64,000 nucleotides of DNA. Origin: Archaeoglobi archaeon JdFR-42. Its GTDB lineage: Archaea; Halobacteriota; Archaeoglobi; Archaeoglobales; JdFR-42. Both the position numbers and the translations under genes were made by a program. Every line of letters starts with the position of its first letter. Positions within the stretch are counted from its first letter, which is position 1. Below are positions 7,625-51,785 of this stretch, piece by piece. The DNA lies in contig MTND01000027.1 of assembly GCA_002010305.1 (NCBI GenBank), positions 116,930-180,929 on the forward strand. Direction: 5' to 3'. Under the pieces are notes generated by a model that worked only from the letters and a program-made list of their open reading frames with translations, did not search any database and had not been told where the DNA came from.

Positions 7625-8953
7625 TTATGAATAATGTCCGTATTTCAAAACCGCTTCATTTACGGCTTTAAGGTTCTCAGGCTTTACTACATCTAACGGT
7701 ACATCACTATCCAGTATAAAGCCCCCATTTTCACCCAGAACTTCGATAGCTTTTTTGCAATACTCTTCAACTTTTTGAGGAGATGCAGTATACAGCAACG
7801 AGGCAGGAATACCTCCCGTTAGACAGAACTTATCTCCTAGAACCTCCTTTGCCTCAAATATTCCTTGCTCAATATGGTATATTATCTTGCCTCTAGGCAT
7901 CTCTTTGATGATCTCAAGATAAGGTCTGTAATCTCCTTCTGTATAAGCGTATGGTATAACATCATTCTTAATTAGAGTCAGAAAGACTTTTTTGAGGGTA
8001 GACCAGTAGAACTCCTCGAATTGCTCAGGCCTCATAAATATTCCTTTATGAAGACGAAACACTACAATAGGATTTCCAGTTAATTTAGCAAATCTAATAC
8101 CCCATTCACTCATAAAAGGGGCAACTCTCTCACACACAGCTTTTACTTTTTCTGGGTTCCTGAATATATCTGTTAAAATACCCCTCGTTCCTCTTCGAAA
8201 GTCCCCAATATAGTCAAATGGAGCATGAGTAAGGGCTGAAAAAAACTCTGGAAATCCCATACTTTTTACATCCTGTAGACATTGTCCCATAACCATTCTC
8301 CACTTTCTAACTTCTCTTGCTGCTTCAGCAAGAGCTTCGAAAGCCTTATCGATATCTGGTGTTGCCAGAGCATCCAGATAACCGTGGTAGTAGCATGTAA
8401 TTCCATTAATTGGGGGCAGGTTTGCAAAAGGTTTCAGAGCATCGCATACTTGAGAGAGATGGCCCCTTAAATTAAAATCACTGGGATCTTCCAAAAACCA
8501 GTCGTATTCTTCCAGTTTCATAGGTTCATATAACTCTTTTCCTTCAATTTTCTGTCCGGGCTCCACAAACTGATAGGTTGGCGCATCATCATCCAGTCCA
8601 AGGCCAGGCAGTCTAAGGGGTTTGTATTTAAGGACTTCAAAAGCTTTAGCAGGCCATACTGGGACCCTTGGCACAGCATCCCACTTGAAATCAGTGATGG
8701 TCTTTTTTAACGCTATACATATTTTATCATAGTTGTACATTGCTTCTCTTAGCGATATTCCTGAATAAGTTAGAGGGAATAGACCAGCATCTGGAGCCAA
8801 TGGTATCTTATCAGGGATCTTCAACTGAATGGCATCTGCCAATCTCTCTGCTCTCTCAGCATATTTTTGTTCCGCCTCCTGGCTTTGAAATTGAATTCTT
8901 TCTTTTGAAGCCCATTTTTCAAGAATTTTTTTGATATTTGTCATGTTATTCAC
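7625..8953 (-). CDS. Uroporphyrinogen decarboxylase (URO-D) family corrinoid methyltransferase, MtoB-like candidate
   Basis: UroD-fold protein directly upstream-coupled to a corrinoid protein gene. It lacks the MtaA HxC...C zinc motif (KIIYHIEQGIFEAKEVLG...). Confidence 0.75.
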   Translation of the reverse strand: MNNMTNIKKILEKWASKERIQFQSQEAEQKYAERAERLADAIQLKIPDKIPLAPDAGLFPLTYSGISLREAMYNYDKICIALKKTITDFKWDAVPRVPVWPAKAFEVLKYKPLRLPGLGLDDDAPTYQFVEPGQKIEGKELYEPMKLEEYDWFLEDPSDFNLRGHLSQVCDALKPFANLPPINGITCYYHGYLDALATPDIDKAFEALAEAAREVRKWRMVMGQCLQDVKSMGFPEFFSALTHAPFDYIGDFRRGTRGILTDIFRNPEKVKAVCERVAPFMSEWGIRFAKLTGNPIVVFRLHKGIFMRPEQFEEFYWSTLKKVFLTLIKNDVIPYAYTEGDYRPYLEIIKEMPRGKIIYHIEQGIFEAKEVLGDKFCLTGGIPASLLYTASPQKVEEYCKKAIEVLGENGGFILDSDVPLDVVKPENLKAVNEAVLKYGHYS

Positions 8954-9593
8954 CTTCCATCCATTTTTTAGCCAGATTTATGGCAGCTACAGGATCGCGA
9001 CAATACGCATCAGCACCCACATATTCCTTCGTGTCTTCATCAATAGTACCCCCACCTATGATAATTTTAATTTGATTCCTCAAACCGGCCTCTTCTATGG
9101 TCTTAACAGTCTCTCTCATTGAACCAAATGCAGAGGTTAAAAGAGCACTCATGCCAACTATCTTGGGTTGATGCTTTTGTATTGCTTCAACAAATTTATC
9201 AGGGTGTACATCGACACCTAGATCTATAACTTCAAAGTCGTTAGCTTCAAACATGGTAATTACTATATCTTTTCCAATATCGTGTATATCTCCTTTCACA
9301 GTTCCTATAACAACTTTACCCAGTAGTTTAGAAGTGTTGCTTTTTTTCAATTTTGGTTTTAGCATATCCGTTAACTTATTAAGAATTTCGCCAGCCATCA
9401 TCAGATCTGCTACGAAATACCATCCATCCTCGAAGCGTTTACCAACTATATCCATAGCCTTCTTAACATCATTCAGAATCTCCAGTGGATCTTCTCCAGC
9501 ATTCAACTTTTTTTCTGTAAGCTCAAATACCTTTGTCTCATCTAAATCTGCTAAAGCGTTAATATATTCATCCTGAATTTCGCTCAACTTCAT
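8946..9593 (-). CDS. Corrinoid (B12-binding) methyltransfer protein, MtoC/MtmC-like
   Basis: Cap domain plus B12 motif 'VIGTVKGDIHDIGKDIV' (DXHXXG) and GMSALLTSAF; overlaps downstream UroD ORF. Confidence 0.92.
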   Translation of the reverse strand: MKLSEIQDEYINALADLDETKVFELTEKKLNAGEDPLEILNDVKKAMDIVGKRFEDGWYFVADLMMAGEILNKLTDMLKPKLKKSNTSKLLGKVVIGTVKGDIHDIGKDIVITMFEANDFEVIDLGVDVHPDKFVEAIQKHQPKIVGMSALLTSAFGSMRETVKTIEEAGLRNQIKIIIGGGTIDEDTKEYVGADAYCRDPVAAINLAKKWMEGE

Positions 9594-9867: not shown

Positions 9868-11196
9868 CTAAGATTCTGGTTCGGGTGGAATCAGAGTAGA
9901 CGATACAAATATGGTTTCTATATGCCAGTTCGCTCCGGGATTCACGTTGCCTGAAGGTGGACCAGCTCTGAAAGCTTCAAGAGCCAGCCTCGGCTCTTTT
10001 AGATCGCCCCATTCAGTGTAAGAGAGTGGATATATGAACAGCGGAATCTCAAATCTTCCATTTCTTATTGTATCCGCAAGTTTCTTTGGATCATCTGATC
10101 CCGCCTGATTAAGAGCCCAAGCAAGATGATAGATATTCACATATCCATCAACGGCCATGTTGTTCATGTAGTCTCCGTACTTCTCTCGGTATTTTTCTGC
10201 AACTTTTTTATACTCTTCACTTCCATAATCAGTAGCTGCAAACGCCATCGCTCCTTCTGTAACCTTCTCCCCCAGAGCTGAAACCCATTCATCTTCCAGT
10301 AGTGCTGGGCCAACATAACCCTCACTTTTGAATCCAAGCTCAAGAGCCTGTTTCATTATCACCTTGCACCCTGGTGGATGACCAGTTGCTACAAAGAATT
10401 CAGGATCAAGGTCTTTCAGTTTCCGTAAATATGGAGTGAAATCCTTTTCTCGTACTGGTGCCACCTCAACTTGAACAGTTACACCAGGTATTGAAGCTAT
10501 GTGTTTCTCAATTCCTGCTTTGATCGAGTGTCCAAATGAATAATCTGCGATTATGGCTCCAATCCTCTTGTAACCCTTTTCCTTAATATACTCTGCAGTT
10601 GCAACCATCCAGAGTGGGGCTGAAGGATTTGTTCTGAATGTATAACGATTGTTCTTTTTATGGATTTTCTCTGTAACTGCAAGATGCAATATGAGAGGTA
10701 TCTGAAGCTCTTCAGCTTTCCTAGAAGTAGCCAGCCCTATATCACTTGAAACAGGTCCAATTGCAGCTACAACCTTTTCACTGTATGTGAGCTCTTCAAA
10801 ACTTGTAGCTGCGCTGTTAGGATCGTTTTTTGTATCTCTAACACTTAACTCAAGGGGTCTGCCAAGAACACCCCCCTTTGCATTTATTTCTTCAACAGCC
10901 ATTTTAGCTCCGTTGAGAAAAGGAGGCCCATACTGAGAGAATGGCCCGCTAAAAGGAGCCAAAACTCCTATCTTGATGGGTTCTTTTGATGGTGTGGGAG
11001 TTTTTTCTGGAGATGGTGTTGGAGTCGGTTTTGGCGTTTCTTCTGGAGTGGGTTTTTCTTCAGCACAGCCTAGTAAAGAAGAGCCGAGTAAGATTGAGCT
11101 TCCAATAGCAACTCCCTTAACAAACTCTCTTCTTGTTATTTTTTTACCTCTCCTCATTATATCCCTCTCTAGTGTTATCTTGGTATGGTTTATCAT
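9868..11196 (-). CDS. ABC-type branched-chain amino acid/aromatic-type substrate-binding lipoprotein (LivK-like)
   Basis: Tat-like 'RRGKKITRREFVKGVAIGSSILLGSSLLGC' signal with lipobox, Pro/Thr linker, 'IKIGVLAPFSGPFSQYGPPFLNGAKMAVEEINAKGG'. Confidence 0.92.
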   Translation of the reverse strand: MINHTKITLERDIMRRGKKITRREFVKGVAIGSSILLGSSLLGCAEEKPTPEETPKPTPTPSPEKTPTPSKEPIKIGVLAPFSGPFSQYGPPFLNGAKMAVEEINAKGGVLGRPLELSVRDTKNDPNSAATSFEELTYSEKVVAAIGPVSSDIGLATSRKAEELQIPLILHLAVTEKIHKKNNRYTFRTNPSAPLWMVATAEYIKEKGYKRIGAIIADYSFGHSIKAGIEKHIASIPGVTVQVEVAPVREKDFTPYLRKLKDLDPEFFVATGHPPGCKVIMKQALELGFKSEGYVGPALLEDEWVSALGEKVTEGAMAFAATDYGSEEYKKVAEKYREKYGDYMNNMAVDGYVNIYHLAWALNQAGSDDPKKLADTIRNGRFEIPLFIYPLSYTEWGDLKEPRLALEAFRAGPPSGNVNPGANWHIETIFVSSTLIPPEPES

Positions 11197-11584: not shown

Positions 11585-12865
11585 ATGAGAAGATGTATGG
11601 TTGAAAAAATATGGGACAATATGCCTTGGAAAATAGATACAGAGAAATTTAAAAGGTTTGATCAGAAATATACTATGTTCAGTAGAACTGGATGGGATCC
11701 AGAAATACAGACTATGGCTAAAAAGACTGTTGAAAGTGTTATCCGTAATATCAAGAAAGGGAATAGGTCTACTCTACTTGACTATGCATTGATGTCTGCT
11801 GGATGGTGGGTAGCTATGAAATCTGCACCATATCAGATGGATCATGGAGATGGCGGGCTTTTAAGCTGGAAAAGCGACATATCTCCTGTGTTTACTATCG
11901 CTTCCGCTCTATGGAATGAAAACTCAGAATTAAAAAGAGAGAGGGAAAAATTCCAAAAATCAATAGAAAAAAACCCAGATATACTCTCAAGAACTGTTAA
12001 AAAAGTTGCAAAGTATTTTGGAGCCGATCTTGTGGGGATTGCACAATTTGATATAAGATGGGTTTACTCTCATAGAATTCTTAATCCTAGATACCACCTT
12101 GGCGAAGAGTTCAGCGAAGATCCCCTTGATCTGCCAGAGGGAATCAAGTATTGTATAGTGATAGGTATCGAGGAAGATTATTACATGCAGGAAACAGCAG
12201 ATGGTGGAGTCTCCATGGGTGATGTTGGCTTTGGGTACTCCAAGATGGCGATAATAGCTGGCAGTCTTGCAGAATTTCTGAGAGCCCTCGGATTCACTGC
12301 TATCCCTAGTGGAAATGATCTAGCCATCAGTATACCCTATGCAATAAGTGCAGGGCTTGGAGAATTCAGCAGAATGGGGTTGCTTATAACAAGGAAATAT
12401 GGTCCTAGGGTAAGACTTGCAAAGGTATTTACAAACGCACCTCTGGTGCCTGATAGGCCCATCAAATTTGGGGTTTACGAGTTTTGTCTGAAATGTAAGA
12501 AGTGTGCTGAGAAATGCCCTTCCCAGGCCATTCCATACGGAGATCCTGAATGGGAGGGAGACACGCAAAGCAACATTAAGGGAGTTTACAAATGGTATGT
12601 TAATGTTGAAAAATGTTTTGAATACTGGTGTAGATCCGGAAATAGTGCATGTGGTGTTTGTGTCAGAGTATGTCCATATAATAAGCCAGTGGATAAAGCG
12701 TCGTATTACATTCATGCATTTTTCAGAGAATATATAGCTCCGATTGTGGGAGGGGAGATTGGAAAGAAACTGGATGATGTGATGGGATACGGCAAAAGAA
12801 AGAGTTCTTCGAGCTGGTGGGGTTTCGATTATAGAGAGATTGTCAGTAAAACCAAAGAGGATTAA
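11585..12865 (+). CDS. Reductive-dehalogenase-like corrinoid/Fe-S protein (RdhA family), no Tat signal
   Basis: 'RFDQKYTMFSRTGWD' N-terminus; two clusters CLKCKKCAEKCPSQAIP and CFEYWCRSGNSACGVCVRVCPYNKP typical of RdhA/QueG. Confidence 0.85.
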   Translation: MRRCMVEKIWDNMPWKIDTEKFKRFDQKYTMFSRTGWDPEIQTMAKKTVESVIRNIKKGNRSTLLDYALMSAGWWVAMKSAPYQMDHGDGGLLSWKSDISPVFTIASALWNENSELKREREKFQKSIEKNPDILSRTVKKVAKYFGADLVGIAQFDIRWVYSHRILNPRYHLGEEFSEDPLDLPEGIKYCIVIGIEEDYYMQETADGGVSMGDVGFGYSKMAIIAGSLAEFLRALGFTAIPSGNDLAISIPYAISAGLGEFSRMGLLITRKYGPRVRLAKVFTNAPLVPDRPIKFGVYEFCLKCKKCAEKCPSQAIPYGDPEWEGDTQSNIKGVYKWYVNVEKCFEYWCRSGNSACGVCVRVCPYNKPVDKASYYIHAFFREYIAPIVGGEIGKKLDDVMGYGKRKSSSSWWGFDYREIVSKTKED

Positions 12866-13852
12866 ATGAGTCGAAATCCCCTTCTAATGGTTCTTCAGAA
12901 TGAGACACCTGAAAGGGTACCGGTATTGATGACAACAGGTTTTATAGCCATAAAACACTCACCATATTCTCCTATTGAGGTAAGAGAAGATGGAAAAAAA
13001 CTGGCAGAAGCTCAAATTAGATTTCAGAAAACAATAAACGCTGATTCAGTCTCTATCTATTATGATGTCAACTACATCCCAGAAGGTTTTGGTTGTAAAA
13101 TCAGGTTTACTAGATTTGGACCTGTTGTATATAAAACCCTTGATATCTATGAAAATATGTACTTTGAAGAGACAGCGAGTGTTAAGGCAATAGAAAATGC
13201 AGTTGAATATGCCTCGAACTTTTCAAGAAAACCTGTGATGCCTCTATTTGAAGGACCATTCACCACTGCAACGAGAATTTTCGAAGCAGAAAAGTTACTC
13301 AGGGCAATATATCTCGATCCTTCACGGGTCAAAGAGATTATGGAAACCTTAACCATAACCCTTATAGAGTTTTCAGAAATATTGATAAAAAAAGGGGCCG
13401 ATATTCTTTACATACCAGACCCATCATCGACTCCTGACATGATCTCTCCATCACATTCCCTTGAATTTTCTTTTCCCTATCTCAAGAAATTGATTAAATA
13501 TGTCCGCAAGCATGTCCCAGTTATTATCCATATGTGTGGAGATACTGAGAGCATATGGTCTTACATACCTGATCTGAGAGGAAATGCTTACAGTCTTGAT
13601 CAAAAAATAAGCCTGAAAAAAGCGAGAGAGAAAATGAAAGATATAGTTCTTGCAGGGAATATCGATCCTATTGAGACCCTTCTTTTTGGTTCTCCAGAAA
13701 GGGTAAGAGAAGAATCAATTCGGGCTATTGAAGATGGGGGGCCTGAGAAATTTATTTTAATGCCAGGATGTGCTATTCCTTCAGAAACACCTCTCCAGAA
13801 TCTGAAAAAAATGGTAGAAGTGGCAAAGTCTTGGAGACTTTTTAAGTGTTAA
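12866..13852 (+). CDS. MtaA/MtbA-like methylcobamide:CoM methyltransferase (UroD family)
   Basis: 328 aa; zinc motif 'IIHMCGD...LMPGCAIPSETPLQN' (HxC...C). Start codon immediately follows the RdhA-like stop codon. Confidence 0.85.
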   Translation: MSRNPLLMVLQNETPERVPVLMTTGFIAIKHSPYSPIEVREDGKKLAEAQIRFQKTINADSVSIYYDVNYIPEGFGCKIRFTRFGPVVYKTLDIYENMYFEETASVKAIENAVEYASNFSRKPVMPLFEGPFTTATRIFEAEKLLRAIYLDPSRVKEIMETLTITLIEFSEILIKKGADILYIPDPSSTPDMISPSHSLEFSFPYLKKLIKYVRKHVPVIIHMCGDTESIWSYIPDLRGNAYSLDQKISLKKAREKMKDIVLAGNIDPIETLLFGSPERVREESIRAIEDGGPEKFILMPGCAIPSETPLQNLKKMVEVAKSWRLFKC

Positions 13853-13919: not shown

Positions 13920-14795
13920 TTACCAGACATCTACTCTTTCTTTCATCCTGACCAGATACCGGTATGTAGTATCTATGGTGTGAATTGAGGGAAAAACATA
14001 TTCACACCTCTCAATCGGCCCATATAGTATGAAATCTAATCCTAGAATAACTGGCATTACTATTGCAGTAGTTTCAACAGAAGGAACTGCTTGTTTGCCC
14101 ATGAGTTTCGCCAACCCGGTCCAGCTTGAGACTGCATTATGAGCTCCACTCCCGCATGGCAATCCAAATTCCTTTTTTATGTTAAAAGCAGCCCTGCATG
14201 ACAATGATAGACTTGGTACATCGATTACATACGTATCGATTAAGGGGTTTGCAATCCCAGCTTTTTCAGCTTTTTTTAGTATTTCTTTCAGAACTACCAC
14301 TCTTCTCTCTGCCCCTATAAACCCCCTCTCATAGGTTAACAGGATGGCAGATTTAACTCGATTTTCCATCAAGGCATCAAACTCTGAAGCTTTTGAGTCC
14401 AAGGTGAGGGAGTTATAAATAACTCTGTCTTCAAGCCCCACATCAGCCACATACTTTAATCCTGCGATTCTGGTCTCAACACTTGGAGAGTCTAAGAGAA
14501 ATGGGGAATCTGTTACTTTCGTGACAAAGTCAATATGTTTCGTAATCGACTCTTTGGTAACCCCAATAACATCCAGCATGCATGGATTTCCAGTTTTATC
14601 AGAAAACTCCTCCTGAAGTTTGATCAGCTTCTCAGCAGCTTCTTTATCAAAAACTCCTTTATTCTCATTATGTATTATCTTTTGCCCATGATAAAAGATA
14701 CTACCTATGAGTACAGTTGGACTCTCACCGGGTTGACCACCAATTTTTACATTACCGATTTGAAAAATCTTCTGAGGAGTCTGAAATCTGAACAT
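13920..14795 (-). CDS. MtrH-like tetrahydromethanopterin/tetrahydrofolate methyltransferase (MtoA-like candidate)
   Basis: 'MFRFQTPQKIFQIGNVKIGGQPGESPTVLIGSIFYHGQKIIHNENKGVFDKEAAEKLI' is MtrH; no other mtr genes nearby. Confidence 0.92.
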   Translation of the reverse strand: MFRFQTPQKIFQIGNVKIGGQPGESPTVLIGSIFYHGQKIIHNENKGVFDKEAAEKLIKLQEEFSDKTGNPCMLDVIGVTKESITKHIDFVTKVTDSPFLLDSPSVETRIAGLKYVADVGLEDRVIYNSLTLDSKASEFDALMENRVKSAILLTYERGFIGAERRVVVLKEILKKAEKAGIANPLIDTYVIDVPSLSLSCRAAFNIKKEFGLPCGSGAHNAVSSWTGLAKLMGKQAVPSVETTAIVMPVILGLDFILYGPIERCEYVFPSIHTIDTTYRYLVRMKERVDVW

Positions 14796-26104: not shown

Positions 26105-27940
26105 TTAAATATACCTTGTATAAATGGTCGGAAAAAGCTCCTCTTTACCTGGCAATACTAATGCTCCATTATATTCTTCAAAAAATTCTGGATCAGTGGA
26201 GAGATCTATGTAGCTCACAAGCTTCGCTACAGTTTCAACCATCTGTCTCTTCTTAACAGACGTGAGAGCGAGATACGACCCGGACAGAGAACCATTACCA
26301 ATTTGGATCACTTCTCCATTGGGAAATTCCGGGAACAGTCCGATAGTGGTGGCGTTTTCAACATTGATATAGTATCCAAATCCTCCTGCAATGTAAACCT
26401 TTTCAATGTCTTGAATGGAAAAAGCTAGTTTCTTGAGTAGAACTGAAATTCCTGCACATACGGCAGCTTTAGATTCAAGAAGAGTCTCAATATCCTTCTG
26501 GGACAATGTAATTTCCTGACCTATTGCACTCTCGTCTTTTTCTACAACCACATATTCCATCTGCTGATCATTTCTTACTCTTGGATTGCTTTTATCAAGC
26601 TTACCAGTGAAGTCCACGATACCATTTTTGAACAACTCAGCGAGAAGATCTATTAAACCACTACCACATATGCTCTTAGGTTTTACATTTCCAATAACAT
26701 TGATACGGGGTTTTGCATCATATCCTTCAATGATAACGTGATCTATTGCTCCTTCCACCGCCCGACTTCCATATTTTATCTCATACCCTTCAAAAGCAGG
26801 ACCTGAAGCAACAGAAGTCGATATAGCCCAGCCTTCACTACCTATAACGATCTCCCCATTAGTGCCTAAATCTATTAGAAGAGATATCTCCATAGAATTA
26901 ATCATATTTGATGAGATGATGTCGCCTATGACATCTCCTCCAAGAAATTTTCCGACCGATGGGAGGGAGTACACCATGGCATTTTTGTTTACATTTAATC
27001 CAAGTTCATAAGCAGGAGTAACAAGAGGGGCTCTGTTCAGATTAGATTGTAGAGTCTTAAGATTCTCTTTTGAGGAGTTTTCTCCTGGTTTTTTTTGTGA
27101 AAAAAGATAATCCACAGATTTACCATGAAAGAAGTGAGACATAATGGTATTTCCCGCTGTAACCACGTCATAGATCATTTCAGGGGACACATACTCATTA
27201 AGAAGTTCGTGAATTATCCTGTTAAGTGATCCGATAACAGCCTCTTTCAAGAGAGAGACCCCATCATCCTTTTTCCTAGATAATTCTACTCTAGAAAGAA
27301 TCTCTTCACCATAGATTATCTGACCATTATAGTCAGATGTGATATTAAGGATGCGACCAGTATTTAGATCAACTAGTGCAGCGACTATAGATGTAGTACC
27401 AATGTCCACCGCAAGCCCGTATAGTTTATCTGATGTATTGCCTTCTTCTACAGCAATTACATCTTTTCCTCTCAGTACCAATGTAAAATCTCCTTCTTCA
27501 ACATCTGGGGAACAAGAGAGATTGTAGTTTCTGGAAGCGATTATTTCAGGTAAAAAAGAGTTTGAAACAAATTCTTTACGAACTAACGGGAAAAGGTCAT
27601 TCCTCGTAACAACAAAATCGCTAAGTATCTGCTGCTTTTCAAGTCTTGTTTCTGGAGGGATAAACACTTCAAGGTCAGAGAGAGCTTTTGTCCTGCATGC
27701 AATGACAAATCCTTTTTCCCTCCTTTCTTTAGAAAGAAATCTTTTTTGAAGTTCTTCTGATTTCTCAGTAACTCCATTATTGACTAGAACAATACATTTC
27801 CCACATGCACCTTTCCCACCACACAGGCTTCGGATACCTTCTTTTGCTTTTTGAGCTGCAGAAAGAATATCGATTCCTTTTTCTACTTTAACTCTCTTTC
27901 CCGAAGGTAAAAAAGTAATCGTGATAGTATTATGAGCCAT
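26105..27940 (-). CDS. RACo/MtoD-like reductive activator of corrinoid proteins (2Fe-2S plus ASKHA/DUF4445)
   Basis: N-terminal plant-type ferredoxin 'LCGGKGACGKCIVLV', 'GLAVDIGTTSIVAALVDLNTG', 'AGGFGYYINVENATTIGLFP'. Start taken at MAHNTITITF. Confidence 0.9.
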   Translation of the reverse strand: MAHNTITITFLPSGKRVKVEKGIDILSAAQKAKEGIRSLCGGKGACGKCIVLVNNGVTEKSEELQKRFLSKERREKGFVIACRTKALSDLEVFIPPETRLEKQQILSDFVVTRNDLFPLVRKEFVSNSFLPEIIASRNYNLSCSPDVEEGDFTLVLRGKDVIAVEEGNTSDKLYGLAVDIGTTSIVAALVDLNTGRILNITSDYNGQIIYGEEILSRVELSRKKDDGVSLLKEAVIGSLNRIIHELLNEYVSPEMIYDVVTAGNTIMSHFFHGKSVDYLFSQKKPGENSSKENLKTLQSNLNRAPLVTPAYELGLNVNKNAMVYSLPSVGKFLGGDVIGDIISSNMINSMEISLLIDLGTNGEIVIGSEGWAISTSVASGPAFEGYEIKYGSRAVEGAIDHVIIEGYDAKPRINVIGNVKPKSICGSGLIDLLAELFKNGIVDFTGKLDKSNPRVRNDQQMEYVVVEKDESAIGQEITLSQKDIETLLESKAAVCAGISVLLKKLAFSIQDIEKVYIAGGFGYYINVENATTIGLFPEFPNGEVIQIGNGSLSGSYLALTSVKKRQMVETVAKLVSYIDLSTDPEFFEEYNGALVLPGKEELFPTIYTRYI

Positions 27941-28081
27941 AAAGAAAAACACGCGTAAAAATGTATTTATGTCTTTTCCCGAAAATATTCTCACCGAGGG
28001 TATTGAAAGGAAGACCATAAGTATGTTATACATAGTTGTAGGAATCCAAAAACATATATGGCAAGAATTTCATAACTATTA

Positions 28082-29377: not shown

Positions 29378-29411
29378 TATGATGAATACATCATATGATG
29401 TTTGAATCATA
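29378..29411. promoter_or_regulatory. Two overlapping inverted repeats at the start of the mer operon (candidate operator)
   Basis: TATGATG-aata-CATCATA (29378-29395) and TATGAT-gtttga-ATCATA (29394-29411), downstream of TATA-like ttttttatattg. Confidence 0.55.
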
Positions 29412-30858: not shown

Positions 30859-30861
30859 TAG

Positions 30862-42224: not shown

Positions 42225-43541
42225 TCAACTGGTATCTCTAAGATCAATAACTCGCTTGGCTTTTATACCATCTCTTGGAATCGTTCCTGGATCAACAATT
42301 CTGACTTTTGGAGTATATCCTGTAATGGCCTTTATTTCCTTAGTATAATGCCTTATAAGTTCCGTTTTTTCTTTATTCGAGAGTTTCTTAAGGGATTCCA
42401 CTTCCACCGTCATCGTGTCCAGATACCCTTTCTTTTCAACAATTATTCTATAATTGACTCCACTCTCCTGGTGTCTCATGAGAGCTTCTTCGATCTGACT
42501 GGGAAAGATATTGGTACCACTCACAATTATCATATCATCGGTTCTTCCTATAATCGTCGAATGCTTTATATGGGTCCTCCCACACTCACACTCTTTTGTA
42601 TCATACAAGAAGGCCAAATCTCTAGTTCTGTATCTTAGAATAGGCATCGACTCTTTAGTCAATGTGGATATTACAAGTTCCCCTTTCTCCTCCAGCTCAA
42701 TTGGTTCACCTGTTTTTGGATCCACACACTCAACCAAGAAGTGATCTTCCCAGAGGTGAAGACCATCATGCTGGTCACAATCTGTTGAAACTCCGGGACC
42801 GCACATTTCGCTCAGTCCATATACGTTATGAGCATCCATATCCCATAAATCATTCATTTTCTTTCTCAACCCTTCAGTGAAGGTTTCTGCTCCAAATAAT
42901 CCAGCTCTTACTTCGAGATCTTTTGAAGGATCTATTCCCATCTCCATGGCTACTTTAGCCAGATGCAGTCCATAAGAGATAACACCAGACATGAAAGTGG
43001 TTCCATAATCCTTCATAAGAGTAATCTGACGGTTGGACTCTCCTCCACTACTTGGAACTATTAAGGCTCCTATTTTCCTCGCACCATAGTGAAATCCAAA
43101 GGCTCCAGTGAACAGCCCATAGGGTATTGGATTCTGAAATATGTCCTTTTTCGATAAACCAGACATGGCTAGACAGCGGGCCATAACCTCGCCCCATACA
43201 TCGATGTCGTTCAGAGTATATACTACCGTGGTGGGTTTTCCCGTAGTACCTGAAGAAGCATGAAGCTCCACTAGCTCTTCCATTGGAACCGCTAGAAGGC
43301 CAAAAGGATAGTTTTTCCTTAGATCCTCCTTTTCCATAAAAGGCAACTTTCTTACATCCTGAAGCGTTTTTATATCTTCAGGTTTAACACCCATTTCCTT
43401 CATCTTCCTGCGATAGTATGCTACATTCTCATATACTCGATGGACGGTATTCTTTAACCTTTCAAGCTGAATGGCTTCGATTTTTTTTCTATCTAACGTC
43501 TCTATTTTTTCATTGAACATGTAATCCTTCACAATATTCAC
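42225..43541 (-). CDS. Phenylacetate-CoA ligase-like AMP-forming acyl-CoA ligase (PaaK family)
   Basis: 'ELHASSGTTGKPTTVVYT', 'YRTRDLAFL', 'IIGRTDDMIIVSGTNIFPSQIE'. Confidence 0.93.
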   Translation of the reverse strand: MNIVKDYMFNEKIETLDRKKIEAIQLERLKNTVHRVYENVAYYRRKMKEMGVKPEDIKTLQDVRKLPFMEKEDLRKNYPFGLLAVPMEELVELHASSGTTGKPTTVVYTLNDIDVWGEVMARCLAMSGLSKKDIFQNPIPYGLFTGAFGFHYGARKIGALIVPSSGGESNRQITLMKDYGTTFMSGVISYGLHLAKVAMEMGIDPSKDLEVRAGLFGAETFTEGLRKKMNDLWDMDAHNVYGLSEMCGPGVSTDCDQHDGLHLWEDHFLVECVDPKTGEPIELEEKGELVISTLTKESMPILRYRTRDLAFLYDTKECECGRTHIKHSTIIGRTDDMIIVSGTNIFPSQIEEALMRHQESGVNYRIIVEKKGYLDTMTVEVESLKKLSNKEKTELIRHYTKEIKAITGYTPKVRIVDPGTIPRDGIKAKRVIDLRDTS

Positions 43542-43550
43542 CTCCAGTTA

Positions 43551-45173
43551 CTATCCGAATAGCATCCAGTTCGCCCTAGTAACAAGATTCTTAAAAGCAT
43601 AAGCACATCGTTCAGGGGAGCTCAATACAGGAATCTTATTATCCCGAAAAATTTTATGTATAACAGGTGTATCAACAACATAGGCCACAACAGGTTTTCC
43701 ATATTTCCTGCTGGCATTTACAAAGGCCTCTGCAAACTCTCTGGAGTCGAGACCCACATTTATGGCAATCACACCCCCAATGTACTCCAGAGACATAACT
43801 ATATCCACACATCTACTATAATTGGAAAAGGGGGTTGCTGGAGTCATATCTAGCGGATTTGATAGGGCGGCAATTGGTGATGCAACTTCCTTTAATTGTT
43901 TTTTAGCTTCAGAATCGAATTCCGGGACTTTCAGGCCGAGTTCCTCGCATAGGTCACTGACAGCTACACTTGGTCCACCGCTTATGGTTATGATCCCTAC
44001 ACTGTCACAGGAAGGGAGTGGTTGGGTGGACAAAACTTGAGCAGTGTCAAGCATTTCATCCATATTTTTAAACAACAAAACCCTGCTCTGCCTACATGCA
44101 GCCTCAAAGATCCTGAACTCTCCTGCCATAGAACCTGTATGAGACCTTGCAGCTCTTGTTCCTGCACCTGTTCTCCCTATTTTGTAAACAAGAACAGGTT
44201 TTCTAGAAGAAATACTTCTAGCAGTATCAATGAATTTCCTTCCATCTTTCAACCCTTCCATCAAAAGCATGATCACATCAGTTTTTTCATCTGAACCAAG
44301 AAACTCCATCATTTCTACGAAATCTACATCTACCATGTTGCCTATACTTACAAACCGACTTAATTTTAATAGAGAATTTCGTACATAATGTAAAGCTATC
44401 CCTCCAAAGGCACCACTTTGAGAGATAAAAGCCACATTTCCTTCATCCATAGGAACTTCCCAGAAATAACTGGCATTAATTTTCGTATGGGTGTCAAGGA
44501 TACCCATACAATTTGGTCCAATAATTCTGACCCCTGATTCCTTTGCAATCTCGTACATCTTTTCCTGAACAGCACGACTTTCCTGACTCTCAACCTCTCC
44601 AAATCCAGCTGATAGGATAACACAGGCTTTAACTCCTTTCGCAACACAGTCGTTCAGAGCAGGGAGAACGTATTTCCCAGGAATGGATATTATAGCAAGA
44701 TCCACCTCCCCTTCTATTTCAAGGATACTCTGATACACTCTGTATCCCAGTATTTCCTTTTCCTTTGGATGTATCGGATACACCTGGCCATCAAAACCAG
44801 AATCGATGATATTCTTAAAAAGAACGTACCCCAACTTCTCTTTGTTTCCTGTTGCACCAAAGACTGCTATTGATCTGGGATTGAAAAAATAGGAAAGAGG
44901 ATTTTCCAATATTCCTCCTCCCATGGGAAAGGATATGGCCACTTCGTCTCCATGAGCCAGAATATGGTCTCTCTTTACTTCCTTTCCATTCACCACAAAA
45001 ATAGCTTCTCTATACCCTTCTCGTTCAATAGCGTTCCTGAACTCTCTGCCATATTTAGAAAAAAGAACCTGAAGTAGATCTTCCACTGTAGAACCCCTTT
45101 CAAGATTGATTCTCTCTTCTCTTTTTCCGGTTACCTGAGAAAAATAACCGAGAAACCTCACGAAGACTATCAA
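43551..45173 (-). CDS. MoaD/ThiS-like domain fused to ADP-forming acyl-CoA synthetase alpha subunit
   Basis: N-terminal ubiquitin-like domain 'MIVFVRFLGYFSQVTGKREERINLERGSTVEDLLQVL...AHGDEVAISFPMGGG' continuing to 'NPRSIAVFGATGNKEKLGYVLFKNI...AFISQSGAFGG...ARSHTGSMAGE'. Confidence 0.88.
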   Translation of the reverse strand: MIVFVRFLGYFSQVTGKREERINLERGSTVEDLLQVLFSKYGREFRNAIEREGYREAIFVVNGKEVKRDHILAHGDEVAISFPMGGGILENPLSYFFNPRSIAVFGATGNKEKLGYVLFKNIIDSGFDGQVYPIHPKEKEILGYRVYQSILEIEGEVDLAIISIPGKYVLPALNDCVAKGVKACVILSAGFGEVESQESRAVQEKMYEIAKESGVRIIGPNCMGILDTHTKINASYFWEVPMDEGNVAFISQSGAFGGIALHYVRNSLLKLSRFVSIGNMVDVDFVEMMEFLGSDEKTDVIMLLMEGLKDGRKFIDTARSISSRKPVLVYKIGRTGAGTRAARSHTGSMAGEFRIFEAACRQSRVLLFKNMDEMLDTAQVLSTQPLPSCDSVGIITISGGPSVAVSDLCEELGLKVPEFDSEAKKQLKEVASPIAALSNPLDMTPATPFSNYSRCVDIVMSLEYIGGVIAINVGLDSREFAEAFVNASRKYGKPVVAYVVDTPVIHKIFRDNKIPVLSSPERCAYAFKNLVTRANWMLFG

Positions 45174-45179
45174 CAGGTC

Positions 45180-45380
45180 TCACCTGCGAATAAAGGAAAA
45201 TCTAAATCCTTTTCTGGCCTCCATCTCCTCTTTACTGATTCCCAGACAGCGATTACAGAGGTTCTTTGACTTGTCAAAATGCAGATCACAGAAAGTTTTA
45301 CGACACTTCCAGCATATGTTTACTCTGACATATGGCTGAGATAAATCGATCCTTTCCTTACAGGTCTTGCACAGAGGCAT
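45180..45380 (-). CDS. Small double-zinc-ribbon protein
   Basis: 'CKTCKERI...ICWKCRKTFCDLHFDKSKNLCNRCLG'. Confidence 0.7.
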   Translation of the reverse strand: MPLCKTCKERIDLSQPYVRVNICWKCRKTFCDLHFDKSKNLCNRCLGISKEEMEARKGFRFSFIRR

Positions 45381-47366
45381 TTATACCACCAGTCCTTCTT
45401 TTTCAAGAATCTTCAACACATCATGGAGTTCAAGATCCTCTAGAGTTTCCCGTTTTATCAACCCTGTTTCGGGGTCCCATCCTCTGATTTCATAATATCT
45501 GTCTATCATCTTGTTGAAGGTATCTCTGGTATATATTTCTCCTTTAGCTGGCCCACGAGGTACTTTATCCTTGAAAAATCTCTCTGGAAGAGTATCATCC
45601 TTTCTTCGAATTCCTCTTCGGATGTTAAATGCCCTCTCCACATTAATAATTCGCTTTCCTATTCTGAGCAATTCTTCATAGCTGATGTTCCATCCAGTCA
45701 CAGCCGAAATCCATTCATGATATTTCAGGGAATGCACTTCTCCCTTTAGCTTGAAGTACTTATGAATGAGTTCTGGTACTGGATATTGAGTATAATAACT
45801 TGCATGCATGAACCTGCAAGAACCTATGGAGTCTGTTATTGCTCCCAGTTCTTCATGCCATGCGACCATCTCTGGTTTCCCTCCATATTTTCTCAGATCT
45901 ACTGCTTCTGGATCTCCAAAGAGGTCTTTTCCTATTTCTGGTGGAAGTTTTATCATCTCAAACACAGGATGAGCTCGAAGATGGTCTGATCCTCTGCTCG
46001 CCACTGCATAGGCAAATCCAAATCCTTTGGCAGCCCTAGGATCACATGAAATGGAGTCCATTCCTTTAACATTGGAGGTGTAGTACATTGCTTTCTCAGA
46101 TATGGCTTTCGCAGCAAGATAAGATCCAAGTCCCCCAAGTTCACCTATTTTACCCTCTCTATTGGCAATTTTGTGGATAGCTTCAACCATCGCATCGGCA
46201 TTTCCAAATCTCAAATCAAGACCATCTAGAAACTCGTCATCAATAATACCCTCTTCCCTCCATTCCATAAATGTAGCGATCATATTACCGCAAGACACGG
46301 CATCCATACCGTAATCATTGGCAATCATATTGGCGTGGAATACTGCATCGAAATCGCCTACGCCACATTTACTACCAAAAGCCCCTATAGCCTCAAATTC
46401 AATATTGCCTCTTGTTCCCGCATATTTACCAGTTCGAATAACACCATATCTCTTGCATCTGTTTGGGCATGACATACAGGCTCTTCCAGCAGGAATTGGC
46501 GACTCTTTGACAGAAAATCTATCTCTGAATTCTTCTCCACTTATTTTGTCTGCATCTTCAAAGTAGGATTCTCTGAAATTTCTCGTGGGAAGCCATCCCT
46601 GAGCGTTGCCCCATCCAACACATACCGCAGTCCCAAGAACAGAATGTTCCTGGGTCTTAAATCCAAAGTCGTTCATCAAAGCCAGCCAGCCATCTCTAGC
46701 AACCTCATAATATCTATCCGGATCTGCAACCTCTATAGATCCCGTACCACTGACGCCAATGGCCTTAAGGTTTTTCGACGCCATTACCGTCCCCATTCCG
46801 GCTCTTCCAGCGGCATCCCAGTAATCAAAGATAACAGAGCCATATAACACACCATTTTCTGCTGCTCTGCCTACTGCAGCCACCTTCACATCGTCATGTC
46901 TCTCTTTAAGGACATCAGTGGTCTCAAAGACTCCACTTCCTTTCAGATCTGAGGCATCTCTCAACTCCACATGATCATCTTCTATCAGGAGATACACTGG
47001 TTTTTTAGATCTTCCCACCACCACGATGTTATCATAACCGGCGTATTTCAGCTCTGGAGCAAAATTGGTACCAGCATTGGAGTTTCCGAAAATACCTGTC
47101 AGCGGAGAGAGGGAAGTAACATCTACTCTTCCTGTAGTTAATCCCAGAAGACCATTAACAGGCCCTGTAGCAATCAAAAGCACATTATCCGGGCTCATTG
47201 GGTCAACATCGGGCCCAACGAGATCGAAGAGCAGTCTTCCATTGAGGCCACGTCCTCCAAGAAATCTTTTTACAAGATCCCTGTCCAGTGGTTCCTTTAT
47301 AACTTTCCCTTTTGTCAAATCAACTTTCAGAGTTTGACCTGCATATCCATATAGTTTTTCCATCAT
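45381..47366 (-). CDS. aor: Aldehyde ferredoxin oxidoreductase (tungsten/molybdenum-pterin)
   Basis: 'YGYAGQTLKVDLTKGKVIKEPLDRDLVKRFLGGRGLNGRLLFD', 'CMSCPNRCKR', 'AAGRAGMGTVMASKNLKAI'. Confidence 0.95.
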   Translation of the reverse strand: MMEKLYGYAGQTLKVDLTKGKVIKEPLDRDLVKRFLGGRGLNGRLLFDLVGPDVDPMSPDNVLLIATGPVNGLLGLTTGRVDVTSLSPLTGIFGNSNAGTNFAPELKYAGYDNIVVVGRSKKPVYLLIEDDHVELRDASDLKGSGVFETTDVLKERHDDVKVAAVGRAAENGVLYGSVIFDYWDAAGRAGMGTVMASKNLKAIGVSGTGSIEVADPDRYYEVARDGWLALMNDFGFKTQEHSVLGTAVCVGWGNAQGWLPTRNFRESYFEDADKISGEEFRDRFSVKESPIPAGRACMSCPNRCKRYGVIRTGKYAGTRGNIEFEAIGAFGSKCGVGDFDAVFHANMIANDYGMDAVSCGNMIATFMEWREEGIIDDEFLDGLDLRFGNADAMVEAIHKIANREGKIGELGGLGSYLAAKAISEKAMYYTSNVKGMDSISCDPRAAKGFGFAYAVASRGSDHLRAHPVFEMIKLPPEIGKDLFGDPEAVDLRKYGGKPEMVAWHEELGAITDSIGSCRFMHASYYTQYPVPELIHKYFKLKGEVHSLKYHEWISAVTGWNISYEELLRIGKRIINVERAFNIRRGIRRKDDTLPERFFKDKVPRGPAKGEIYTRDTFNKMIDRYYEIRGWDPETGLIKRETLEDLELHDVLKILEKEGLVV

Positions 47367-47848
47367 CTGAGATCCCTCGCACGAGCCTGAGCAGCAGCTT
47401 CCTTTCTTGCTATCTTAACCTTCTTTATGGTATCAACATCCAGAGAAGTGGAATAGCTAACAGCTCGAGTAAAACACCATTTCACACACTCTGGATCTCC
47501 TCTGCACAGATCGCACTTAAAAAAGACTTTTTTATCTTCATCAAATCCTATGGCCCCAAAAGGACATGCGATCATGCAACGTTTGCATCCGATACAGATG
47601 TCAGGATCAAGAATCACCGCTTGAGTGTCTTCATCCCTGTATATCGATCTGACAGGGCATACAATCATACATGGGGCATCCTCACAGTGTTCGCATCCAG
47701 TAGGAACATCTATGCCGTCCCTATCAAACTTTACAACCCTTATCCTGGCTTTTGTTGGAGAAAATACACCCTCGTTGATAAAACTGCAGGCCAGCTCACA
47801 CGCTCTGCATCCCGTACATAGGTCTGGGTTAAAGACCAATTTCTTCAA
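47363..47848 (-). CDS. 4x[4Fe-4S]-type ferredoxin subunit of AOR
   Basis: 'CTGCRACELACSF', 'CEHCEDAPCMIVCP', 'CIGCKRCMIACPFGAI', 'CDLCRGDPECVKWC'; 4-nt overlap with aor. Confidence 0.93.
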   Translation of the reverse strand: MKKLVFNPDLCTGCRACELACSFINEGVFSPTKARIRVVKFDRDGIDVPTGCEHCEDAPCMIVCPVRSIYRDEDTQAVILDPDICIGCKRCMIACPFGAIGFDEDKKVFFKCDLCRGDPECVKWCFTRAVSYSTSLDVDTIKKVKIARKEAAAQARARDLR

Positions 47849-47850
47849 TA

Positions 47851-48828
47851 TTACACCTCCAGATCCTTTACATCACAAAACTCAGAAAAGTCCAGTATTT
47901 CCTGAGATATGTGAACCTTAGTGGGGACTCCTGAAGCCCTTAGAATCCCAATTGGCGTTGAAGGGCCTACACATACAAACCCAATTTTATTTACCCCCCT
48001 CGGTGGAACTCCACACACAGGTTCGTCAAGACCTCCTATAGCATGGGCAGGTTTGATATCATGTTCCTCTAGTAATTTCATAATCTCAACAAGTCTTTCT
48101 CGACCAACAAATGGAATTTCCCTGTAAATTCCAAAGACTTCTCCTTCTCCTTCGAAGATCGATTTCTCACTCACTTCAGAAAACATACGCTGTATGAAGA
48201 GATCAAGAGCAGTTATAGACGACTCCTCAAATCCAATCACTTGAGTGAATCTTGTGAGCATGAAATTTGACATCTCTACTGATCCAGCAAATCTGAGAGT
48301 GGAGACGATCCCATTTCTGTATAAAATGGCATCTAAAGTAAAACTGGACAGATAGTATATACCTACCTTACCTTCTTCAATCAATGGAATGTCTCTTGCT
48401 GGGGCCACTCTACTGCTGAAAGCTAGGCCTTTTTTTCCACATCGGTCAAATATCCCGGTAACCTTCTTCAGGCTATTTTTTGGAAAAATAGCCAGATTTG
48501 CAATTACTTTCCCTTCTCCGGTTTCGACATCAAAATTGGAATAAAATATGCATTCATGTATCCTGCTTAGACCATATCCAATCCGATCAGCTATGTTACC
48601 TTTTTCAATCTCTCTGAGACCTTTCTCAGTTATAACTCTACCTTTGAGACCAAAATTCTCTGTCAGTCCCCTTTCATCCAGAATCCTTAGATGGTATCTT
48701 ACTGCCTGTTCAGTAAGATATATCCCCCTTTCCCGAAGTTTATTGGCAATAAATCTCGCTCCAGTAGGTTTTTCCTGTTCAGCAAGAATTTTCAATATTT
48801 CAACAACTTTCCGCTCGATATTGGTCAT
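47851..48828 (-). CDS. NrpR/DUF128-like transcriptional regulator with N-terminal wHTH, single effector domain
   Basis: wHTH 'GARFIANKLRERGIYLTEQAVRYHLRILDERGLTE' followed by one DUF128/NrpR domain. Confidence 0.82.
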   Translation of the reverse strand: MTNIERKVVEILKILAEQEKPTGARFIANKLRERGIYLTEQAVRYHLRILDERGLTENFGLKGRVITEKGLREIEKGNIADRIGYGLSRIHECIFYSNFDVETGEGKVIANLAIFPKNSLKKVTGIFDRCGKKGLAFSSRVAPARDIPLIEEGKVGIYYLSSFTLDAILYRNGIVSTLRFAGSVEMSNFMLTRFTQVIGFEESSITALDLFIQRMFSEVSEKSIFEGEGEVFGIYREIPFVGRERLVEIMKLLEEHDIKPAHAIGGLDEPVCGVPPRGVNKIGFVCVGPSTPIGILRASGVPTKVHISQEILDFSEFCDVKDLEV

Positions 48829-48888
48829 ATTTTCTCTTCTCCTGTTGTTTTATCTGATGTTTACACACTATCTTATTTTAACATTTTT

Positions 48889-48907
48889 TGTAAAGCATAG
48901 CTTTACA
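48889..48907. promoter_or_regulatory. Perfect palindrome TGTAAAGC-ATA-GCTTTACA upstream of the NrpR-like gene
   Basis: Read directly; 60 bp upstream of the first gene of the AOR operon. Confidence 0.55.
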
Positions 48908-48928
48908 TGATGAAATGGTACCTGCAAC

Positions 48929-50128
48929 TCAGTGGTTTCCGTTTCCGATTACTCCATCTTCTTTCAGCTTTCTTACTTCTTCTTCAGAGAGACCAAGGAT
49001 GTGAGTGAGGATCCTCTCACTCTGTTCCCCCAATGTTGGTGCCGGATCAAATTCCTCCATCTCACCATGCATCTTCACAGGAGTGCCAAGAGTTTTCACC
49101 CTACCATAGGTTGGATGAAAGAACTCTACTACCATATTCCTCATGCGGATCTGCTCGTCTTTAACCACTTTATCAATGGTGTTGATAGGGGAACACGGTA
49201 CTGCGTACCTGTTCAGGATCTCCAACCATTCATCTGTAGACCTCTCGTGAAATCTTTCCTGTAAAATTGGAATAAGTGCTTCTCTGTTTTCCACCCTTTT
49301 TGAATTATTCAAGAACCTTGGATCATCAACGAGTTTTTCAAGTCCAAGAGCCTTACAGAACCCCTCCCAGATTCTTTCAGTAAACACTGCCACAACTAAG
49401 TAACCATCTCTGGTTTCGAAAGCCTGATATGGTACGATGGATGGATGGCCTGACCCAACTCTTTCTGTAACATAACCTGCACTTAGATAATACTGCACCA
49501 TGTAAGTTAACAAAGAAAATGTACAATCAAGAAGGCTGAGTTCTATTCTGCAACCTTCTCCAGTTCTTTCCCGCTTCTGGAGCGCTGCAAGAACACTTAT
49601 AGCTCCATATAACCCACCAGCCAGATCCCCAATAGGAATCCCCATCCTCACAGGAGCTCTTCCAGGTTCTCCAGTAACACTCATGGCTCCGCTGTAGGCC
49701 TGAATTGCTAGATCAAAAGCAGGATGATCCCTTTTTGGCCCTTCTTCCCCATAAGCGGATATAGAGCAGCATATGATCTTGGGATTTATCTTTTTTAAGG
49801 TCTCATATTCAATTCCAAGTCGAGATAGTACACCTGGTCTAAAATTATCAACTACTACATCAGCCTTTTCGACGAGTTTATAGAATATCTCCCTTCCCTT
49901 ATCGCTTTTCAGATCCAGTGCTAGGCTCTTTTTGTTCCTGTTTATGCTGATGAAATATGCACTCATACCGTCTACGAAAAAGGGGCCTATGTCTCTGGTT
50001 GGGTCTCCATTTTCTGGGTCCTCGATCTTTATAACTTCTGCTCCAAGATCTCCCAAGATCATAGTGGTAAAAGGTCCTGCCAGCATTCGTGTTAGATCTA
50101 GTACAATAACACCATCTAAAGCTTTCAT
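48929..50128 (-). CDS. CaiB/BaiF family CoA transferase
   Basis: 'VIVLDLTRMLAGPFTTMILGDLGAEVIKIEDPENGDPTRDIGPF', 'VDNFRPGVLSRLGIEYETLKKINPKIICCSISAYGEEG'. Confidence 0.95.
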   Translation of the reverse strand: MKALDGVIVLDLTRMLAGPFTTMILGDLGAEVIKIEDPENGDPTRDIGPFFVDGMSAYFISINRNKKSLALDLKSDKGREIFYKLVEKADVVVDNFRPGVLSRLGIEYETLKKINPKIICCSISAYGEEGPKRDHPAFDLAIQAYSGAMSVTGEPGRAPVRMGIPIGDLAGGLYGAISVLAALQKRERTGEGCRIELSLLDCTFSLLTYMVQYYLSAGYVTERVGSGHPSIVPYQAFETRDGYLVVAVFTERIWEGFCKALGLEKLVDDPRFLNNSKRVENREALIPILQERFHERSTDEWLEILNRYAVPCSPINTIDKVVKDEQIRMRNMVVEFFHPTYGRVKTLGTPVKMHGEMEEFDPAPTLGEQSERILTHILGLSEEEVRKLKEDGVIGNGNH

Positions 50129-50138
50129 GGGTCAACCC

Positions 50139-51755
50139 TCAAAAGATGGGGGGCTCTTTAAACACCCCATATTCATCTTTAAGAACCTGAGTTATCTCTC
50201 CTACTGTTGCATAATGTCTAACCGCTTCTATGATATAGGGCATTAGATTTTCGTCTCTTTTTATAGCCTTCTTTAGTTCTTCAAGGCTTTCCTTAACTTT
50301 CAGGTTATTGCGCTCATTTTTAACTTCCTTCAGCCTTTCCAATTGAGTTTTCACAGCAGTCATATCCAGATCATACAGTTCAATTTCTTTTTCTTCCTCT
50401 TCCATTCGATACTTGTTTACCCCCACTTTGACTATTTCACCGGACTGGATTTTCTTTTCCATTTCATATGCCTGTCTGGCGATTTTTGACTGGATGTATC
50501 CTCTCTCTACTGCATTGATCATACCACCCCAACTCTCAACCTCTTCCATTACTTCTATGATCTTCTTCTCCATTTCGTTGGTCAGCCATTCAATGTAATA
50601 TGATCCGCCAAGGGGATCTACTGTATCACATACGCCGGTTTCTTCCATCAGAATCTGCATGGTCCTAAGAGCCAGAAGAGAAGCTTTAGCCGATGGAATG
50701 GTATATGCTTCATCAAAGGTACATAATGCCATGGTTTGAGTTCCGCTGAGAGCCGATACAAGAGCATAATAGGCCCCTCTCACTATATTGTTCTCAGGCT
50801 GCTCGAAAGTCAGTCCAGCTCCTCCTCCCCCAGCGATCATCTTCATTTTCATGGATGCTGAGTTCTTCGCTCCATACTTGTCTCTAATAATTCTGGCCCA
50901 GAGTCTTCGTCCTGCCCTCAACTTGGCAATCTGCTCAAACATATTCCCAAATATGTCGAAATTAAAGGAAAACCTAGGAACAAACTCATCCACTTTCAGA
51001 CCTCTTTCCAAGACTTTATCAATGTATGTCTCAGCAATACTGAAAGCGTAACCCATTTCCTGAGCAGGAGTTGCCCCACTCTCCCTGATGTGGTATCCAC
51101 ACACACTCACAGGATAAACTTTTGGAGCATTTCTGGCACAAAACTCAATAATATCACATACCAGTTTGACAGAAGGCTCCACCGGGAATATCCATGCACC
51201 ACGCCCTATTATCTCTTTGAGAATGTCATTCTGAGGAGTTGCTCTAACATCCTTCAAATCCACTCCCTGCTTCTCAGCCACCACAAAGTACATGGCCAGA
51301 ATTATTGGGGCAGTTGCGTTTATGGTAAGAGACGTGCTTATCTTGTCGATAGGTATACCATCGAAAGCTATTTCCATATCCTTTAAAGTGTCAACAGCCA
51401 TCCCTACTCTGCCCACTTCCCATTTGGCGAGAGGATTATCTGAGTCAAGGCCATTCTGAGTTGGGAGGTCAAAAGCGACATTCAGCGCATTCTGACCGTT
51501 TTCTATCAAAAATTTAAATCGGGAATTTGTATCTTCAGGAGTTCCAAAACCTGAGTACTGTCTCATAGTCCAAGGGCGGTAGCGGTACATGAACTTATGA
51601 ATGCCCCTAGTAAATGGAAACTCTCCCGGATTTCCTATATCTCTTTCATAATCCAGATCTTTAATATCCTCGGGTCGGTAAATGGGTTTAACCTCTATTC
51701 CCGATTCCAGTACAACTTTTCGAAGATCTTTCTCTGTGATTTCTTTTTTCGCCAT
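50139..51755 (-). CDS. Methylmalonyl-CoA mutase-family large subunit, atypical
   Basis: 'FPFTRGIHKFMYRYRPWTMRQYSGFGTPEDTNSRFKFL', 'GYHIRESGATPAQE', 'DTVDPLGGSYYIE'; lacks the usual HTQT-like stretch. Confidence 0.9.
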   Translation of the reverse strand: MAKKEITEKDLRKVVLESGIEVKPIYRPEDIKDLDYERDIGNPGEFPFTRGIHKFMYRYRPWTMRQYSGFGTPEDTNSRFKFLIENGQNALNVAFDLPTQNGLDSDNPLAKWEVGRVGMAVDTLKDMEIAFDGIPIDKISTSLTINATAPIILAMYFVVAEKQGVDLKDVRATPQNDILKEIIGRGAWIFPVEPSVKLVCDIIEFCARNAPKVYPVSVCGYHIRESGATPAQEMGYAFSIAETYIDKVLERGLKVDEFVPRFSFNFDIFGNMFEQIAKLRAGRRLWARIIRDKYGAKNSASMKMKMIAGGGGAGLTFEQPENNIVRGAYYALVSALSGTQTMALCTFDEAYTIPSAKASLLALRTMQILMEETGVCDTVDPLGGSYYIEWLTNEMEKKIIEVMEEVESWGGMINAVERGYIQSKIARQAYEMEKKIQSGEIVKVGVNKYRMEEEEKEIELYDLDMTAVKTQLERLKEVKNERNNLKVKESLEELKKAIKRDENLMPYIIEAVRHYATVGEITQVLKDEYGVFKEPPIF

Positions 51756-51785
51756 TTTATTTCACCTTCCTCCAAAATTGTAAAT

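Follow-up and report, generated by a model that had tools for sequence, protein, structure and literature searches.

RdhA1, encoded by the Archaeoglobi archaeon JdFR-42, is a genuine enzyme of the reductive dehalogenase family and not a QueG. It has no Tat leader, and its orthologues in Ferroglobus are encoded within a catabolic gene cluster for CoA esters. Our preferred reading, on which we are evenly balanced, is that RdhA1 is a cytoplasmic, catabolic and non-respiratory enzyme of the dehalogenase type that feeds such a CoA-ester cluster, and that the zinc methyltransferase encoded directly downstream (the 12866 gene) works with the products of neighbouring methyl-transfer genes.

The features discussed here (Table 1) lie in a stretch of 64,000 nucleotides, henceforth the window. 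The source genome, presumably that of a hot-vent archaeon, comprises 2.15 Mb in 42 contigs; its two mcrA genes bear out the archaeal host that had been proposed from the sequence, and five mtrH genes are present. Boyd et al. described Ca. Polytropus marinifundus, a deep-subseafloor member of the Archaeoglobi, with two mcrA and five mtrH genes (PMC6474303). Elsewhere in the window (29395-32268), genes whose translations resemble an ArsR-like regulator, a membrane/HMA protein, a small Cys-rich protein and a MerA-like flavoprotein stand in a row and are likely to form a mercury-handling operon.

Table 1. Positions of the genes discussed, numbered from the first letter of the window.
Feature	Position	Strand	Evidence
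CdmB/MtoB-type MTI (O-demethylase or haloalkane methyltransferase family)	7625..8953	-	Full-length CdmB match 9rui, 2e-38
Methyltransferase corrinoid protein, MtoC/CdmC/MtgC-like	8946..9593	-	B12-binding domains; 1y80, 1.8e-48
ABC-type substrate-binding protein with Tat/lipoprotein-like leader, divergent from RdhA1	9868..11196	-	PF13458, 2.6e-68
RdhA1, leaderless reductive dehalogenase family	11585..12865	+	426 aa; TIGR02486, PceA sequence and fold, residue check
Zn methyltransferase of the UroD/MtaA-CmuA superfamily, divergent subfamily	12866..13852	+	328 aa; PF01208, 4ay7, Zn ligands, tree
MtrH-family MTII, MtoA/CdmA/MtgA-like (methylcorrinoid:H4MPT methyltransferase), convergent with the pair	13920..14795	-	PF02007, 5.2e-95; NF002142 above cut-off; 8z9u, 4.9e-99
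RACo/RamA-type reductive activator of corrinoid proteins	26105..28033	-	PF14574, 1.1e-89; 2Fe-2S domain; AcsV-like
CoA-ester genes orthologous to the Ferroglobus cluster (PaaK-like ligase, ThiS+CoA-ligase, AOR, NrpR-like regulator, CoA transferase, mutase subunits, acyl-CoA dehydrogenase, V4R, HyuB/A)	42225..57675	-	60-86% identity, collinear
OYE-family (BaiCD/FadH-like) oxidoreductase; orthologue adjoins RdhA in Ferroglobus and G044	61171..63102	+	Orthology

RdhA1 and its relatives

The earlier note had described an RdhA-family reading frame with both cysteine motifs and no Tat leader, and this description holds. The translation contains C301-X2-C304-X2-C307-X3-C311-P and C344-X11-C356-X2-C359-X3-C363-P, matches Fer4 families as well, and passes the RDH profile TIGR02486 (209.8 bits; curated cut-off 160.35), more than a chance resemblance. 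A sequence search of the PDB returned PceA (4uqu; 1.8e-57), a second membrane-bound RDH (9.5e-55), NpRdhA (3.5e-31) and QueG (1.2e-8), and in Foldseek the AlphaFold2 model (pLDDT 84, pTM 0.88) found PceA as its best match (TM 0.73-0.76), with NpRdhA at 0.65 and QueG at 0.35. A QueG-type protein, which had been named at the outset as an alternative, is rejected, with TIGR00276 scoring 40.2 bits against a cut-off of 200 and with the low fold similarity to QueG. Y246, N272 and R305 of the PceA active site, in the established numbering, align with Y218, N244 and R277 of RdhA1; these residues are conserved in the RdhA1 orthologues, while Tyr or Asn is missing in some distant relatives. Read from fold and residues, RdhA1 is predicted to be a cobamide-type enzyme with two [4Fe-4S] clusters.

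Nine codons upstream of the RdhA1 ATG the frame is closed by a stop, so the start site is correct and a Tat leader overlooked through a wrong start codon is excluded. No transmembrane segment is predicted in RdhA1. The search for rdhB that had been recommended revealed none next to RdhA1: between 9 and 17 kb of the window, no small ORF combines several membrane passes with coding support, and the only ORF with two transmembrane segments runs antisense to the gene of the substrate-binding protein. The chain stops after the Fe-S domain, at 426 aa, without a fused C-terminal NAD(P)H/ferredoxin-reductase module, and no electron-donor gene is adjacent. RdhA1 accordingly shares its fold, Fe-S motifs and Tyr/Asn/Arg site with the respiratory PceA of Sulfurospirillum multivorans, but not the Tat leader, RdhB or quinol-linked partners. 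The catabolic NpRdhA is likewise cytoplasmic and has the same catalytic domain; unlike RdhA1, it is a single 700-aa chain with a ferredoxin-reductase module fused to its C-terminus.

The RdhA tree places the window protein with two Ferroglobus orthologues (genomes G004 and G036; 74% identity; support 92/74), and the RdhA of the Archaeoglobi MAG S5B4_HD70 (G017; 64% identity) is sister to them in a four-protein group with support of 100/100. RdhA1 and both Ferroglobus proteins are leaderless, whereas the S5B4_HD70 protein starts with MQIGRRDLFKLGGLAAALSF, a Tat leader, so that a single clade holds both cytoplasmic and exported, apparently membrane-linked RdhA. On its 3′ side, the S5B4_HD70 gene has an ORF of 69 aa, which encodes two hydrophobic helices, and then NapG-like and NapH-like genes, and the locus (G017:C73, L036 1118-4015) is a candidate archaeal respiratory rdh operon. 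Other families of this phylum have RdhAs with Tat leaders as well (L094, L095, L098-L100, L103, L104), in some genomes in two copies.

Two further loci encode RdhA-like proteins. In the source genome, an mcr operon and a gene of radical-SAM type are followed on the 3′ side by the gene of an RdhA/QueG-like Fe-S protein of 276 aa, which scores below the RDH cut-off (G000:C26, L071 3650-8520). A Chloroflexi contig (L050 9926-20700) carries two RdhA-like genes, the first without the catalytic Tyr/Asn, and a RACo-type activator, MttB-like genes and a corrinoid protein are encoded within a few kb of them.

The CoA-ester cluster of Ferroglobus

The RdhA of Ferroglobus placidus was the first archaeal RdhA to be noted (PMC3832961, PMC6737245). 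It is leaderless like RdhA1, to which it is orthologous at about 74% identity; unlike RdhA1, it sits in an OYE/CoA-ester cluster without a methyltransferase. On the single contig of G004 this cluster spans about 25 kb, and RdhA lies within it behind an IS element. The cluster encodes a PaaK-like CoA ligase, a CoA transferase, a symporter, ETF beta/alpha, an OYE-family reductase and RdhA; a 3-hydroxyacyl-CoA dehydrogenase, a thiolase, a DUF35-type protein, a HyuA/HyuB-like pair and a V4R protein; and an acyl-CoA dehydrogenase, B12 mutase subunits, an NrpR-like regulator, a ferredoxin and an aldehyde:ferredoxin oxidoreductase. The leaderless state does not require the IS element seen in G004, because in G036 RdhA starts 21 bp past the OYE gene and is read in the same direction.

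Most genes of the G004 cluster have orthologues at 42-63 kb of the window, with 60-86% identity and in collinear blocks. RdhA1 itself lies outside this cluster and is not in an operon with its OYE gene. A second type, RdhA2 (36-40% identity to RdhA1), is present in G044 and on contig 1 of the source genome (G000), and in G044 it adjoins the OYE orthologue. RdhA and the OYE orthologue, each found in 6 of 60 genomes, occur together in four (hypergeometric 4e-4, uncorrected for kinship). Cluster synteny and this co-occurrence link RdhA functionally to CoA-ester catabolism, and suggest that in the relatives RdhA serves a carbon-degradation pathway. No other gene points to a halogenated substrate.

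The downstream methyltransferase gene and its surroundings

The TAA stop of RdhA1 (12863-12865) is directly followed by the ATG of a 328-aa UroD-family reading frame with a zinc motif, as had been described, and an SD-like AGAGGA lies upstream of this ATG. The junction argues for coordinated expression, and the operon-like spacing suggests that both genes form one transcription unit. The 12866 protein matches URO-D (PF01208) with E = 2.5e-62 and the MtaA structure 4ay7 with 3.4e-22, and the Zn ligands D185, H222, C224 and C302, including the H222-x-C224 motif, are all conserved. It thereby shares the UroD fold family and Zn ligands of the methylcobamide:CoM methyltransferases MtaA and MtbA, but it falls below the equivalog cut-offs of both (146.5 of 400 bits and 132.8 of 600 bits), below that of the MtaA/CmuA family TIGR01463 (162.7 against 235.4 bits) and below that of the PRK06252 subfamily. 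Placed in a tree among labelled MtaA, MtbA, CmuA and HemE sequences, the protein and its paralogue form a long branch outside the MtaA+MtbA clade (99/96). A true MtaA or MtbA is therefore ruled out, and the proposal that the enzyme feeds CoM is left unsupported.

The closest paralogue, with 65% identity, is found on contig 21 of the same genome (G000:C21, L070 4492-7543), where it is coupled, across a gap of 1 bp, to the gene of a 686-aa molybdopterin oxidoreductase; both members of the subfamily in this genome are thus tied to a redox enzyme. Apart from the source genome, no close homologue was found at E<1e-50 among 295 genomes of the phylum, and a search of 228 genomes from the phylum of the Heimdallarchaeota locus, which had no positive control, yielded none at E<1e-40. 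One truncated fragment of the subfamily is present in a genome of the same family (G001).

The coupling of RdhA1 to the 12866 gene is real and has so far been seen in one genome only. The earlier note had proposed that the pair may form a module and had counted lack of recurrence in related genomes against it. About 40 other RdhA loci were examined and none has the adjacency, so a conserved rdhA-mtaA module is not supported. On the genome contigs searched, no MtaA-like match at E<1e-5 lay within up to 10 kb of RdhA; at the other Halobacteriota RdhA loci, flanks of about 1-1.5 kb were read and showed none. Short contigs restrict the view at some of all these loci.

The pair lies on the plus strand between the MTI and corrinoid genes on one side and MtrH on the other, all on the minus strand. 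Together with the activator, which is located 11 kb further off, all four families of a methyl-transfer set are present in the window, although not as one uninterrupted operon. With its MTI, corrinoid protein, MtrH-type MTII and RACo-type activator, the set resembles the Mto system of Archaeoglobus and Methermicoccus and the Cdm system of Acetobacterium (PMC8359953, PMC13222342); unlike in those systems, the MTI, corrinoid and MTII genes here are split by the opposite-strand RdhA-MtaA-like pair. The Mto/Cdm-like set would offer a better methyl route, towards H4MPT, than one to CoM, and if the 12866 enzyme moves methyl groups, the flanking proteins are its nearest partners.

Possible roles of the pair

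According to the preferred reading, a soluble donor, which could be a ferredoxin, ETF or flavin reductase, would pass electrons via the two [4Fe-4S] clusters of RdhA1 to a buried cobamide, and Tyr218 would give a proton while a carbon-halogen bond is cleaved. The dehalogenated product would then enter the CoA-ester cluster, whose counterpart in Ferroglobus is probably co-transcribed with the RdhA orthologues. In the source genome, RdhA1 stands outside that cluster, between the halves of the Mto/Cdm-like set, and would be co-transcribed with the 12866 gene; the most likely partners of the 12866 enzyme in methyl exchange are the corrinoid protein (8946) and MtrH (13920), and not the cobamide buried in RdhA.

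The two genes could also share an operon by chance, with RdhA1 serving the catabolic cluster, the 12866 enzyme serving the methyl-transfer set, and no substrate in common. This is possible, if on the unlikely side: the pair does not recur, RdhA orthologues occur without any methyltransferase, and several methyltransferase sets are scattered over the genome, but the TAA/ATG junction with its SD-like site implies coordinated expression. It is mainly because the paralogue, too, is coupled to a redox enzyme that the pairing is not dismissed.

We consider it unlikely that RdhA1 uses its cobamide and Fe-S clusters for a reduction other than dehalogenation, for example to dehydroxylate an intermediate of the OYE/acyl-CoA-dehydrogenase/hydantoinase-like cluster, either a CoA ester or an aromatic compound, or to carry out a ring/ene reduction on it. 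The CoA-ester cluster that surrounds the Ferroglobus orthologue is not halogen-specific, an OYE-type reductase adjoins that orthologue, and dehalogenation-specific accessory genes are absent. Against this stands the PceA-type Tyr/Asn/Arg triad, which is wholly conserved; to our knowledge, every characterised enzyme with the PceA fold and this triad is a dehalogenase.

Fairly improbable is a sequence of reduction and demethylation for small organohalides or methylated compounds, in which RdhA1 would remove halogens until a methyl halide is left, and a CmuA/MecE-like 12866 enzyme would pass the methyl group via the corrinoid protein 8946 and MtrH to H4MPT. There is a precedent in Dehalobacter, where rdhA lies directly upstream of a mec cassette in a pathway from chloroform via dichloromethane to one-carbon units, and where, as in the window, an RdhA gene stands beside corrinoid methyltransferase genes of the UroD/MtaA-CmuA family (PMC11578063); MecE belongs to the MtaA/CmuA family (PMC9768040). 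That system differs in being bacterial, in belonging to an organohalide-respiring genus, in its location on a mobile element and in its gene order. The MTI of the window resembles CdmB, an enzyme that removes the halogen of chloromethane (PMC13222342), and the methyl-transfer genes, the activator aside, are confined to 7 kb. The coupling of the paralogue to the molybdopterin oxidoreductase also speaks for this reading. However, no methyltransferase is encoded near the leaderless RdhA orthologues of Ferroglobus, the MTI and corrinoid genes are on the opposite strand, and CdmB-type enzymes are closest to the O-demethylase MtoB, so the MTI substrate may be a methoxy compound. That RdhA1 and the 12866 enzyme jointly dehalogenate a methyl- or methoxy-bearing organohalide and deliver the methyl group to H4MPT, joining dehalogenation to methylotrophy in an Mcr-bearing archaeon, we hold to be decidedly improbable; the 12866 subfamily, coupled elsewhere in the genome to the molybdopterin enzyme, would then look as if it served several reductases.

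A single unit for reductive corrinoid demethylation, with methyl transfer from the RdhA cobamide to coenzyme M, is scarcely credible: the zero-gap operon, the conserved Zn site and the mcrA genes, with which CoM is presumably present, are compatible with it, but the adjacency is unique to the source genome, the 12866 protein branches apart from the MtaA/MtbA clade and reaches none of the CoM-methyltransferase cut-offs, the cobamide of PceA is buried in the protein while a dedicated corrinoid protein is encoded close by RdhA1, and ComA of CoM biosynthesis was not detected in the genome (other CoM routes exist). What stands of the functional reading in the earlier note is a cytoplasmic RdhA in a probable transcription unit with a Zn-type UroD methyltransferase, and not the conserved module or the transfer to CoM.

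The weight of the finding rests mainly on the link to the catabolic cluster and on the contrast between leaderless and Tat-bearing proteins. We know of no archaeal RdhA whose function has been demonstrated. Ferroglobus, with a leaderless RdhA in a defined catabolic cluster and an organism that is grown in pure culture, provides a testable system, and the leaderless RdhA and its Tat-bearing sister allow catabolic dehalogenation to be set against a possibly respiratory form within one archaeal clade. The methyl link, if true, would connect one-carbon metabolism with dehalogenation in an archaeon that has Mcr.
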